DNA from: Pirellulales bacterium
GTDB lineage: Bacteria > Planctomycetota > Planctomycetia > Pirellulales > JACPPG01
Length of the DNA stretch: 64,000 bases
Direction of reading: 5' to 3'
Assembly (NCBI GenBank): GCA_036490175.1
Contig: DASXEJ010000231.1
Location: 1-64,000, forward strand
Shown: positions 4,183 to 8,332 of the stretch, in pieces
Layout of the letters: the number at the start of each line of letters is the position of its first letter
Numbering within the stretch: the stretch's first letter is position 1
Program-made: the position numbers and the translations under genes
Notes under the pieces: generated by a model
Seen by the model: only the letters and a program-made list of their open reading frames with translations
Databases searched by the model: none
What the model was told of the DNA's origin: nothing

Positions 4183-4806
4183 ATGGCGGATCAACGACCC
4201 TTCTCCGGCGGCGGCAGCAATGTCAGCCGTCGCGCGTTCTTAAAAGGCTCTGGTGCCGCGGCGGCGGCCACGGCGCTGGCAACTGGCTCGGGCGTCGCCG
4301 AAGCGGCCGACGAAAAATCGAAACTCGTCGGCCCTGGCGCCACGCCGATCAAGTTGAACGTCAACGGCCGCGAGCGCGTATTGCCGGTCGAACCACGCAC
4401 GACGTTGCTCGAGGCGTTGCGCTACAAGTTGAATCTCACTGGGGCCAAGCCGGTGAGCGTCGACGATTCCAGCGGCGCCAGCATGGTGATCATCAATGGC
4501 AAGCCGGCCAGTGCCAACACCGTGTTCGCAATCGCCTGCGTCGGCAAGAAAATTCAAACCGTCGAAAGCCTGGGCGGCGACAAACCGGACGCCGTGCCCG
4601 TCGCCTTCTTGCACAACGACGCCATGCAGTGCGGCTTTTGCACGCCGGGCTTTGTCGTGGCGGTGCGGGCCTTTTTGGACAAGAACCCTAAGGCGACCGA
4701 GAAGCAAATCCGCGAGGGGCTGAACAGCAATCTCTGCCGCTGCGGCACCTACGCCAATGTGATCATGGCCGCCGTCGAGGTGGTGAAGGGAGGCAAGCGT
4801 GGCTAA
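4183..4806 (+). CDS. molybdenum hydroxylase FeS subunit, plant-type cluster ligands lost
   Basis: Small electron-transfer subunit of a xanthine dehydrogenase/aldehyde oxidoreductase-type enzyme, 207 residues. The N-terminus carries a twin-arginine signal (SRRAFLKGSG, 15-24), so the complex is probably exported folded by Tat. A plant-type ferredoxin fold follows (about 56-130) and then the helical [2Fe-2S]-binding domain, whose ligands are intact (C150, C153, C185, C187 in QCGFC and LCRCG). In the ferredoxin domain the expected C-x4-C-G-x-C reads SVDDSSGAS, placing Ser92, Ser97 and Ser100 at the ligand positions; the fourth ligand position appears to be Asn112. One cluster is therefore predicted to be missing. 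The stop overlaps the next gene by 8 bases, which points to translational coupling. Confidence 0.85.
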   Translation: MADQRPFSGGGSNVSRRAFLKGSGAAAAATALATGSGVAEAADEKSKLVGPGATPIKLNVNGRERVLPVEPRTTLLEALRYKLNLTGAKPVSVDDSSGASMVIINGKPASANTVFAIACVGKKIQTVESLGGDKPDAVPVAFLHNDAMQCGFCTPGFVVAVRAFLDKNPKATEKQIREGLNSNLCRCGTYANVIMAAVEVVKGGKRG

Positions 4807-7003
4807 GAAATACAGCTGGCCCGAGCGGGGCACGGCCTCGCTGATCGGCAAACCGCACGATCGCATCGACGGCATGGCCAAGGCCACCGGCGTGGCGAAA
4901 TACACCTACGATGTCGCGCCCGAGCGGATGTTGCTGGCCCGCGTCTTGGGTTGCCCGCACGCGCATTGCAAGATCAAGTCGATTGACCTAAGCGGCGCCG
5001 AGAAAGTGCCCGGCGTCGTCAAGGCCATGGCGATGAAGGTCGAAGGGAACGAAGTTCGTTGGGAAGGGGATCCCATCGCGGCCGTGGCGGGCGAAAGTGA
5101 AGCGGCCGTGGCCGAAGGACTGAAGGCGATCAAGGTCGAGTACGAAGCGCTCGATATCTTCGTCAAGGACGAGGATCTGGCCGCCGCAGAGGCCGCCAAG
5201 CGCACGGGCAAACCGGCCAAGAATACCCAGCTCGAAAAAGAAGCCCCGGACGACGCCGACGAAGAGAAATTCGCCGATGAAGAGATCGCCCGACTGCTGA
5301 AAGAGTCGGATGTGGTCGTGGAAGGGCATTACGGCATCGACGTCATTACGCACATGTGCTTGGAGCCTCATGGCGCCACGTGCCAATGGGATGGCGACAA
5401 GCTGAATGCGTATCTGTCGACGCAAAACGTCTCGGGCACGGCCGGCCAGTTCGCCACGCCGCTCGGTTTGACGGCCGGAGACGTGACCGTGATCTGCGAT
5501 TTCATCGGCGGCGGCTTCGGCAGCAAGTTCCAGGTCGACAATTTCAACGTCACAGCGGCCAAGATCGCCAAGGAAGTCGGTCGGCCGGTGAAGCTGATGT
5601 TGGATCGCGATATCGAGCTGAAGACGGCCGGCTGCCGCCCCAGCGGATATATCAACGTCAAGATCGGCGCCGACAAGAACGGCGTGGTCAAGGTTTGGGA
5701 TTCGGAACATTGGGGGACCTTTGGCGCTACGCTGGGGGGCGTGGACCAGGGCGTGATCCCGTACGTGTTCAATCCCAAGAATCGCCGCCGCCGCGCGATT
5801 CCGATCATCACCAACGCCAGTCCGTCGCGCGCCTGGCGCGCTCCCAATCATCCGCAGGGAAGCGCGATGACACAGGTCGCGTACGACGATATCGCGGGCA
5901 AGCTCGGCCTGGACAGCTACGACGTTTTCTTGCGCAATTTGCCGACCGTCTCGAACGAGAAGCAAGAAATCTACAAGGCCGAGATGGAGATCGCCGCCAA
6001 GCTGATGGATTGGAAGGCCAAGTGGCACGCGCACGGCAAAGGCCCTGCCAAGGGCTCGGTCGTGAGTGGCCTCGGGATGGCCATTCACACCTGGGGTGGT
6101 GGCGGTCAGCCGTCGAACACCAACATCACCATTCACCCCGACGGCGCCGTCGAAGCCACGCTCGGCAGCCAGGATCTGGGGACCGGCACGCGGACCGTGA
6201 TCGCTTTGGTCACGGCCGAGACGTTCGGCCTGCCGCTCTCGGCCGTGAAGGTGAATATCGGCAGCTCGAAGTATCCGCCCAGCGCGGCCTCGGGCGGCAG
6301 CGTCACGATCGCCAGCGTCAGCGAATCGACCCGCCGCGCCGCGCAAGACGCGCTGCGACAGGTCAACGATTTGGTGGCCAAGAAGTTGGGCGTCGAGGCC
6401 GACACGCTCGTGGCCAAGGACGGCAAGATCTCGGTCGAGGGAGACGCCAAGAAATCGCTGTCGTGGAAAGACGCCTGCAGCTTGTTGGGCATGATGCCGC
6501 TAGAGGTGAAGGGAGAGTTCAAACGCCGCGACGATCAGGGGCTTTCCAGCTCGCAGGTCGGCGGCGTGCAGATGGCCGAAGTCGAAGTCGACAAGGACAC
6601 CGGCGTCGTCCGCATGCGAAAGTTCGTCATGGTCCAGGATATGGGCCTGGTCATTAATCCCAAGACCGCCAAGAGCCAGATGTACGGCGCGGCGATCATG
6701 GGAATCTCTTATGCCCTTTTCGAGCAGCGGATCATGGACCCCACGACCGGCGTGTTTTTGAATGCCGAGATCGCTGACTACAAACTGCCGCGGCTGGGGG
6801 ACATTGGCGAGATTGTCGTGGAAATCTACGAGCCCGATAGCGAATACAACCGCGGCGTCGTCGGATTGGGCGAGCCTCCGGTCATCAGCCCCGGAGCGAC
6901 CATCTCGAACGCCGTCTGCAACGCATTGGGCGTGCGTGTGCCGGTTTTGCCTCTAACGCCTAAACGAGTCCTTGACGCTTTGGCGAAAGCGAGGAAAGTC
7001 TGA
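4799..7003 (+). CDS. molybdenum hydroxylase large subunit (xanthine dehydrogenase family)
   Basis: Molybdopterin-binding catalytic subunit, 734 residues, GTG start overlapping the FeS gene by 8 bases. It has the a/b hammerhead start (GKPHDRIDGMAKATGVAKYT), the cofactor-binding segment FIGGGFGSK, and the family's catalytic glutamate in GLGEPP (E692). It has no signal peptide of its own, so it would be exported together with the Tat-tagged FeS subunit. The substrate (purine, aldehyde or aromatic N-heterocycle) cannot be told from sequence. Its stop overlaps the start of the FAD-subunit gene by one base, so the three genes form a tight operon. Confidence 0.9.
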   Translation: MAKKYSWPERGTASLIGKPHDRIDGMAKATGVAKYTYDVAPERMLLARVLGCPHAHCKIKSIDLSGAEKVPGVVKAMAMKVEGNEVRWEGDPIAAVAGESEAAVAEGLKAIKVEYEALDIFVKDEDLAAAEAAKRTGKPAKNTQLEKEAPDDADEEKFADEEIARLLKESDVVVEGHYGIDVITHMCLEPHGATCQWDGDKLNAYLSTQNVSGTAGQFATPLGLTAGDVTVICDFIGGGFGSKFQVDNFNVTAAKIAKEVGRPVKLMLDRDIELKTAGCRPSGYINVKIGADKNGVVKVWDSEHWGTFGATLGGVDQGVIPYVFNPKNRRRRAIPIITNASPSRAWRAPNHPQGSAMTQVAYDDIAGKLGLDSYDVFLRNLPTVSNEKQEIYKAEMEIAAKLMDWKAKWHAHGKGPAKGSVVSGLGMAIHTWGGGGQPSNTNITIHPDGAVEATLGSQDLGTGTRTVIALVTAETFGLPLSAVKVNIGSSKYPPSAASGGSVTIASVSESTRRAAQDALRQVNDLVAKKLGVEADTLVAKDGKISVEGDAKKSLSWKDACSLLGMMPLEVKGEFKRRDDQGLSSSQVGGVQMAEVEVDKDTGVVRMRKFVMVQDMGLVINPKTAKSQMYGAAIMGISYALFEQRIMDPTTGVFLNAEIADYKLPRLGDIGEIVVEIYEPDSEYNRGVVGLGEPPVISPGATISNAVCNALGVRVPVLPLTPKRVLDALAKARKV

Positions 7004-8007
7004 TGAAAGCCTTTGAATACGCGGCACCGACTCATACGTTGGGCGTGCTGGAGCTATTGAGCGACGATGCCGAATCGACGGCGATATTGGCCGGCGGCAC
7101 GGACCTTGTTCCGCTGATGGCCAAGATGATCGTCACGCCGCGGCGCGTCGTGAATATCACCGAAGTAGCGGGCCTGCGCGGTATCGAGGCCGACTCGCTG
7201 GGCGTTACGATCGGCGCAGTGACCTCGCTCGACGATTTGCTCGAATCGCCTGAGCTGGCCGAGTTTCCTGCGATTGGTCAGGCTATCGCGGGTATCAACA
7301 GCGTCACGTTGCAAGCTCAAGGGACGATCGGGGGCGAATTATTGCAGCGTCCGCAATGCTGGTATTTCCGTGGCGGTCATGGGCTGTTGGCAGATGACGG
7401 TCGTTGTGTCGAGGAGGGAGACAATCGCTATCACGCGATTTTTGCCAATGCCGGGCCGGCCAAATTCGTGTCGCCGTCGCGCATCGCGCCGGCATTGATC
7501 GCACTGAACGCGCGGGCCCGGATCGTGGGGCCTGGTGTCGAGGAAGAAACCATCATTCCGGTCGAAGCCTTGTTTCGCACGCCGCGCGACGAGCGGCAGC
7601 GAGAGCACGTGATCGGTCCAAATCAATTGCTGACGCATTTCCTGTTGCCGCGTGGCGAGCGGTCGGCCAATGCCACCTATGAGGTTCGCCAGACGGCTGG
7701 CCCCGATTTCCCCTTGGCCAGCGCCGCGGTAGCACTGTGGATCGAGGATGGCATCGTGCGCGACGCCAATATCGTGTTGGGACAGGTCGCGCCCACGCCT
7801 TGGGTATCGTACGCGGCCGTGCAAGCGCTCATCGGCCAGCCAGTAAACCTTGCCACTGCGACCGCGGCGGGCGAGGCAGCAGTCGAGGCTGCAACGCCAC
7901 TTTCGGATAACGGCTATAAAGTGCAATTAGCCAGCGTCGCCGTACGCAGGGCCATCCTGCTGGCGGCCGGACAAGAGACCGGAGGCATCGACCTGGTAAG
8001 TGGCTAG
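7003..8007 (+). CDS. molybdenum hydroxylase FAD-binding subunit
   Basis: FAD-binding electron-transfer subunit of 334 residues. The FAD motifs AGGTDL (about 31-36) and QGTIGGEL (about 106-113) are present, followed by a CO-dehydrogenase flavoprotein-type C-terminal domain. The segment RPQCWYFRGG after the second motif is seen in a subgroup of these proteins. It completes the usual set of FeS, Mo and FAD subunits, starts within the stop codon of the large-subunit gene, and has no signal peptide. Confidence 0.88.
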   Translation: MKAFEYAAPTHTLGVLELLSDDAESTAILAGGTDLVPLMAKMIVTPRRVVNITEVAGLRGIEADSLGVTIGAVTSLDDLLESPELAEFPAIGQAIAGINSVTLQAQGTIGGELLQRPQCWYFRGGHGLLADDGRCVEEGDNRYHAIFANAGPAKFVSPSRIAPALIALNARARIVGPGVEEETIIPVEALFRTPRDERQREHVIGPNQLLTHFLLPRGERSANATYEVRQTAGPDFPLASAAVALWIEDGIVRDANIVLGQVAPTPWVSYAAVQALIGQPVNLATATAAGEAAVEAATPLSDNGYKVQLASVAVRRAILLAAGQETGGIDLVSG

Positions 8008-8092: not shown

Positions 8093-8332
8093 ATGGCAAT
8101 CGAAAACTTACACACCCTGCCAGACGCGGAAGCGGGGCAGGCCTCTTGTCGGCACCTGCGCTCCAAAGGAATGTTCATCACCGGCTGCGCCAATCCGGCT
8201 GTCGAAGATGGCCAAGTCGGCGATGGTCATTGCTGGTGCAACCTCACGCAGCACGTGCTCGGCCCGGACGATGATTTCGTCGAGCGCCGCATCTGCACGT
8301 CGGGCCGGTCTTGCTTCGTCGCCACGATTTAA
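8093..8332 (+). CDS. small Cys-rich protein, unknown function
   Basis: A 79-residue protein starting MAIENLHTLPDAEAGQ, with a weak GAGG upstream; an ATG at 8084 would add three residues. It contains several cysteines and histidines (SCRHL, GCANP, GHCWCNL, RICTSGRSCF), a pattern that could bind a metal or form disulfides. It lies 85 bases after the FAD-subunit gene in the same direction and may belong to that operon. I do not recognise the family. It has no signal peptide. Confidence 0.55.
   Translation: MAIENLHTLPDAEAGQASCRHLRSKGMFITGCANPAVEDGQVGDGHCWCNLTQHVLGPDDDFVERRICTSGRSCFVATI

Follow-up and report, generated by a model that had tools for sequence, protein, structure and literature searches.

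The window analysed here is a stretch of 64,000 nucleotides that forms part of one contig (C231) of a Pirellulales genome of 7.58 Mb in 393 contigs. On its forward strand, the FeS, molybdenum (Mo) and FAD subunits of a molybdenum hydroxylase are encoded side by side. The preliminary description of this DNA recognized a three-subunit operon, and the three genes do adjoin, but a fourth gene of 79 codons that also belongs to the operon had gone unnoticed. The features that matter for the argument are as follows:

4183..4806, + strand: FeS subunit gene, 207 aa, PaoA/CutS-like, with a predicted empty N-terminal ferredoxin domain (translation, Pfam, alignment, structure match)
4219..4281, + strand: Tat signal (SRRAFLK) of the FeS subunit, residues 13-33 (Pfam PF10518, 27.6 bits, over cut-off)
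4456..4482, + strand: former C-x4-C-G-x-C loop of the FeS subunit, now S92-VDDS-S97-GA-S100 (codons, alignment)
4516..4518, + strand: former fourth ligand of the FeS subunit, now Asn112 (codons, alignment)
4558..4770, + strand: Fer2_2 helical domain (FeS I) with C150, C153, C185 and C187 intact (PF01799, 84 bits)
4799..7003, + strand: Mo-cofactor-binding subunit, 734 aa, PaoC/XdhA-like, with the GGGFGSK, QDLGTGTRT, SGGS and GEPP motifs kept (Pfam, NCBIfam, motifs)
7003..8007, + strand: FAD subunit, 334 aa, with the AGGTD and TIGG FAD motifs kept (Pfam, motifs, structure and sequence matches)
7357..7458, + strand: relic of a PaoB/HcrB-type [4Fe-4S] insert in the FAD subunit, with a cysteine only at the first ligand position (C119) and a private C134 (alignment)
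8093..8332, + strand: small unannotated gene, 79 aa, with four family-invariant cysteines (C19, C49, C68, C74), operon-linked (position, alignment, genome searches)

Judged from the encoded proteins, the best reading of the operon is a putative Tat-exported heterotrimeric Mo hydroxylase from the PaoABC/Hcr branch of the xanthine oxidase family. Among the marks of that family, the FeS subunit has Fer2_2 with all four FeS I cysteines, the Mo subunit has MoCoBD_1/MoCoBD_2 and the GxGEPP motif with its catalytic Glu (PF02738, PF20256 and PF01315 over cut-off), and the FAD subunit has AGG and TIGG (PF00941, PF03450). The Mo active-site motifs are conserved, with GLGEPPVISPGA retained in the subunit, and an XdhC/CoxI-type Mo-cofactor insertion factor is encoded in the same genome. 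The mark that the window protein lacks is an FeS II domain with the C-x4-C-G-x-C...C ligands, where it has S, S, S and N instead.

The loss at this site is plain at the level of codons. Positions 92, 97 and 100 of the FeS subunit are all AGC (the first at 4456-4458) and position 112 is AAC (4516-4518), and in phmmer alignments Ser92, Ser97, Ser100 and Asn112 lie opposite the C-x4-C-G-x-C...C ligands of CutS (1ffu_A), PaoA (5g5g_A) and 4zoh_C, just as the preliminary description had read them. Pfam recovers the Tat signal and Fer2_2 from this protein and gives no match to Fer2 (PF00111) even at E 1; Fer2 is over its cut-off in the cluster-bearing relatives. An AlphaFold2 model (m9706dbcc47e5) has the plant-type ferredoxin beta-grasp fold, with good confidence outside the signal region (residues 51-120 mostly at pLDDT >80) and a TM of 0.91 to CutS (1ffu_A). 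Since its alignment was made up of cluster-bearing relatives and it contains no cofactors, the model supports compatibility with the fold and not cofactor content. It is very likely, on the residues present, that the N-terminal domain of the FeS subunit carries no [2Fe-2S] cluster (FeS II).

The searches began with the genomes of 58 relatives and were extended to the class (199 genomes), the phylum (294) and the order (297). In the 80 operon regions that were fetched, the FeS, Mo and FAD subunit genes adjoin wherever the contig permits. None of the 40 other close orthologues fetched has the ligand set; they come from 12 families of the order, apart from one that was probably transferred. Two further genomes of the same genus (G001 and G003, 83-84% identical) show the loss, as do 38 more loci, and sequencing error, which had been named beforehand as something that could undo the observation, is ruled out by this recurrence in about 40 other genomes. 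Within the order, in a tally that covers close orthologues only and used a query profile built from ligand-less members, 41 of the 42 genomes passing E 1e-52 (G228 included) have the ligand-less type; the sole exception, G588, has a divergent cluster-bearing copy.

Of 99 homologues in the alignment, 53 have four cysteines at the N-terminal ligand positions, 12 have one, 34 have none and not one has two or three; the 12 keep a cysteine at just one of the former ligand positions, never more. One cysteine or none is thus found in 46. All 41 members of the window's clade and five genomes of a neighboring family, f22, have lost the set. The FeS I set, which the preliminary description had called intact in the window's protein, is complete in 99 of 99. 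Serine has been retained in the clade at position 92 in 35 of 40 members, at position 97 in 33 and at position 100 in 31, and Asp94 is found in 38 of 41. The serine codons are mostly AGC or AGT, a single step from the cysteine codons (TGY), as expected of simple substitution. C119 of the FeS subunit, proposed earlier as an example of another cysteine that might enter a functional ligand set, is present in only 30 of 41 clade members and is not conserved in the second lineage; no such set was found.

The second ligand-less set consists of five f22 genomes (L185-L188 and L192), which have Asp, Lys, Glu, Ala, Gly or Ser at the former ligand positions. The replacements at positions 92, 97, 100 and 112 are mostly Asp in these genomes (KDDG, DDDG), in contrast to Ser in the window's clade. 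One further operon (L184, G214) is ligand-less and nested within the window's clade. Its genome is assigned to a different family of the class, f22, and the operon was therefore probably acquired by horizontal transfer.

The subunits were concatenated for a tree, minus the ligand stretch and the signal peptide, and the 27 ligand-less clade rows that were sampled fall on one branch (SH-aLRT 100). Its sister is an f22 clade in which seven rows are cluster-bearing and five are ligand-less. The preliminary description had asked whether the four-ligand loss forms a clade; such a clade is recovered, but the loss happened at least twice and not once. A single origin of all ligand-less rows lowers the log-likelihood by 156 and is rejected (AU p=2.7e-6), which rules out one origin for all the losses and leaves at least two losses of the FeS II ligands. 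A constraint that unites the five ligand-less f22 rows is not rejected (p=0.17). As read from the tree, the loss is shown to be ancestral in the window's clade and separate in the neighboring f22 lineage; a regain of four cysteines in place of multiple losses would be implausible.

The FAD subunit adds an earlier step to this history. An FAD subunit is not universal in the xanthine oxidase family, and the one found here is of the HcrB/PaoB type with an insert, its best matches being 5y6q_B and 1rm6_B. Both partner subunits had been described as intact. This stands for the Mo subunit, with its motifs kept, but the FAD subunit has lost three of the four cysteines of a PaoB/HcrB-type [4Fe-4S] site. 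The four insert cysteines are present in most outgroups and in families f23 and f26; three of the four are replaced (by Leu; by Ser, Arg or Lys; and by Ala) in f21, f22, the Acidobacteriota relatives and the window's clade. The topology of the tree shows the putative [4Fe-4S] cluster of the FAD subunit to have gone first and FeS II later, a stepwise loss. The branch joining f21 to the rest has a support of 85, and a smaller tree instead pairs f21 with f23; given these differing placements, the [4Fe-4S] loss could have happened twice. The FAD motifs themselves are equally conserved in the ligand-less clade and in intact relatives, with AGG, T108 and Y226 each found in 36 of 36 members of the clade and the second glycine pair in 33 of 36.

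The empty ferredoxin domain is under purifying selection. Its dN/dS is 0.02-0.20 in close pairs, similar to that of the C-terminal domain, values that are rough because several synonymous distances are near saturation. With these ratios and the conserved Mo and FAD motifs, the earlier judgment that the operon is not dead is well borne out.

The 79-aa gene at 8093..8332 belongs, by its distribution, to the operon system throughout the wider family. Its relatives are encoded just downstream of the FAD gene, and in 58 of 58 of them the four cysteines, one Lys, a Trp, a Gly-Pro and an Arg are invariant. In two genome searches, 35 of 42 genomes with the operon had the gene, regardless of whether the FeS II ligands were there, and all 11 operon-less genomes lacked it. 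The protein has no match in Pfam, NCBIfam or the PDB and no export signal of its own. As it is also found with full-chain relatives, and given the lack of an export signal, the protein does not specifically compensate for the loss.

A second gene cluster also tracks the presence of the operon and often adjoins it (for example at L154, L155, L169, L170, L172, L176, L178, L179, L182 and L184). It encodes three proteins, all secreted: a DUF1326 variant, a member of an unnamed family (YTLRYGQQPVDGNHVGTSPTRDF) and a member of another unnamed family with an invariant C-x2-C-[AS]-I-x-M-x5-C-x-CC-Q. The trio in the window's genome lies apart from the operon contig, on contig C303 (L226:7228-9322). The third, Cys-rich protein accompanies the operon in most parts of the class and is absent from ten operon-less genomes; it is also found in G004, where the operon was not found. 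Both the 79-aa protein and the Cys-rich secreted protein were considered as compensating genes specific to the ligand-less type and rejected, because both occur with cluster-bearing relatives and so mark the whole system and not the loss of FeS II. Three genomes of genus g124 (G217, G223 and G191; L195-L197) have cluster-bearing operons without either gene, and the g124 operons perhaps have a different function. No CxxCH motif of a c-type haem partner was flagged in the four commonest neighboring gene families or in the two loci of the window's own genome, and no paper on DUF1326 was found in the open-access literature.

A linear chain from Mo through FeS I and FeS II to FAD is treated as standard in the xanthine oxidase family. 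In Kdh, a homologue, the successive spacings between cofactors are 13.5, 13.8 and 10.8 Å, and every gap in the solved family members is below about 15 Å (PMC8305194). Without FeS II, the gap between FeS I and FAD would be up to about 24.6 Å, an upper bound taken from Kdh. A Moser-Dutton estimate with an assumed reorganization energy of 0.8 eV gives 300-1100 transfers per s over 17 Å, 5-18 per s over 20 Å and <0.1 per s over 24.6 Å. These distances and rates suggest that the chain is rerouted at FeS I, or is slow, or is unneeded. The preliminary description had offered a shortened or rerouted chain or a structural role; this remains the reading now that the loss, the clade and the live operon are confirmed, but it was made with the earlier [4Fe-4S] loss in the FAD subunit unnoticed.

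In the mechanism we propose, the empty ferredoxin domain would act as scaffolding that keeps FeS I, the Mo subunit and the FAD subunit assembled. Substrate would be oxidized at Mo and the electrons passed on to FeS I. The chain would be cut short there, most probably with the electrons taken up by a carrier approaching from the side where FeS II used to be, and the 79-aa four-Cys protein is a candidate for this carrier. A single long tunneling step from FeS I to FAD would be a less efficient option. The electron flux would be expected to be low, or to be sent to an acceptor other than that of PaoABC. Taken as a whole, with an empty scaffold domain, a chain truncated after FeS I and a carrier at the vacated side, this mechanism is a tentative proposal that could quite possibly be right. 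The broader claim, that this is an FeS II-free family of Mo hydroxylases that evolved at least two times and bypassed the canonical wire through a new exit from FeS I, for example via the 79-aa protein, is more doubtful.

The full retention of the FAD motifs counts against an exit before FAD, and electrons may still arrive there. It is because these motifs are so well kept in the ligand-less clade that the main rival is a chain that still ends at FAD, in which a long step of about 17-22 Å from FeS I would suffice if the enzyme is slow, and a limit on turnover elsewhere would have led to the loss of FeS II. Over such distances the Moser-Dutton estimate comes to about 1-1000 per s. We regard this rival as unlikely, given that a near-linear arrangement like that of Kdh would stretch the gap to 24.6 Å, with <0.1 per s, and that solved members of the family keep their gaps below about 15 Å (PMC8305194).

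It is also conceivable that catalysis at Mo calls for no net export of electrons, as in a hydration, an isomerization or an internal redox reaction, and that the distal centers became dispensable and were lost singly. The stepwise order of loss, with [4Fe-4S] first and FeS II later and more than once, would fit this idea, as would the fact that FeS I, beside Mo, was never lost. FAD motifs that remain as conserved as in intact relatives argue the other way, and the idea seems improbable.

Another route would keep a metal or a cluster in the N-terminal domain by way of other ligands, whether Ser, the Asp of the second lineage, C119 of the FeS subunit or a cluster supplied by another protein. The loop is kept, with the serines and Asp94 at the frequencies given above; Asp occupies two former ligand positions in the second lineage; and C119 is found in 30 of 41 clade members. 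No conserved Cys or His has taken the place of the lost ligands, however, the serine codons are mostly one step from those of cysteine, and in the plant mFDX-like protein the loss of one Cys is sufficient to abolish the cluster (PMC10069907), all of which makes this very improbable. Relaxed selection on a decaying operon, as two ligand sets lost over time might hint, is hardly credible and is refuted at the clade level by frames open across 12 families, FeS-gene dN/dS of 0.02-0.2 and intact Mo and FAD motifs.

A clade of apparently working enzymes without FeS II suggests that a shortened electron path is tolerable. Cluster-bearing sister enzymes supply natural controls, and the ligands were lost a second time independently, so that the need for FeS II in turnover is directly testable, and the role of the empty ferredoxin domain and the point of electron exit can likewise be tested in the ligand-less clade. 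The analysis also reveals a linked, uncharacterized gene set in the class of the window's genome.

Set against known systems, the operon shows both likeness and divergence. Ferredoxin folds without a cluster have precedent in the plant mFDX-like protein of complex I, which lost cluster binding with one Cys and was kept for assembly (PMC10069907); that is a separate protein and not a domain of a molybdoenzyme, while the case here is a domain of a Mo hydroxylase. A search of the open-access literature, a scope outside which most subscription papers lie, found no Mo hydroxylase without FeS II, in agreement with the preliminary description, which knew of no such variant. Cluster-less ferredoxin domains as such are thus already known, and an FeS II-less Mo hydroxylase would be new as far as was searched. 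PaoABC (YagTSR; 5g5g), the periplasmic aldehyde oxidoreductase of E. coli, likewise has three related subunits and a Tat signal on the FeS subunit (PF10518 here). PaoA has both [2Fe-2S] ligand sets, whereas the window's FeS subunit has only the FeS I set, and PaoB-type relatives have the four [4Fe-4S] cysteines of which the FAD subunit here has lost three. The gene order, FeS-Mo-FAD, also differs from that of PaoABC, the extra 79-aa four-Cys gene is present, and the window's proteins score far below the NCBIfam equivalog cut-offs (124.5 against 322 for PaoA and 329.9 against 1180 for PaoC). HcrABC (4-hydroxybenzoyl-CoA reductase, 1rm6) and the Methylobacillus aldehyde oxidase (5y6q), which give the best FAD-subunit matches and share the insert region, keep all four insert cysteines, and their small subunits align as the ordinary two-cluster type. 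CutS/CoxS of CO dehydrogenase (1ffu, 1n5w) provide the closest solved fold to the FeS subunit (40% identity, TM 0.91); they have both clusters, and the FAD subunits of CO dehydrogenase are without the [4Fe-4S] insert.
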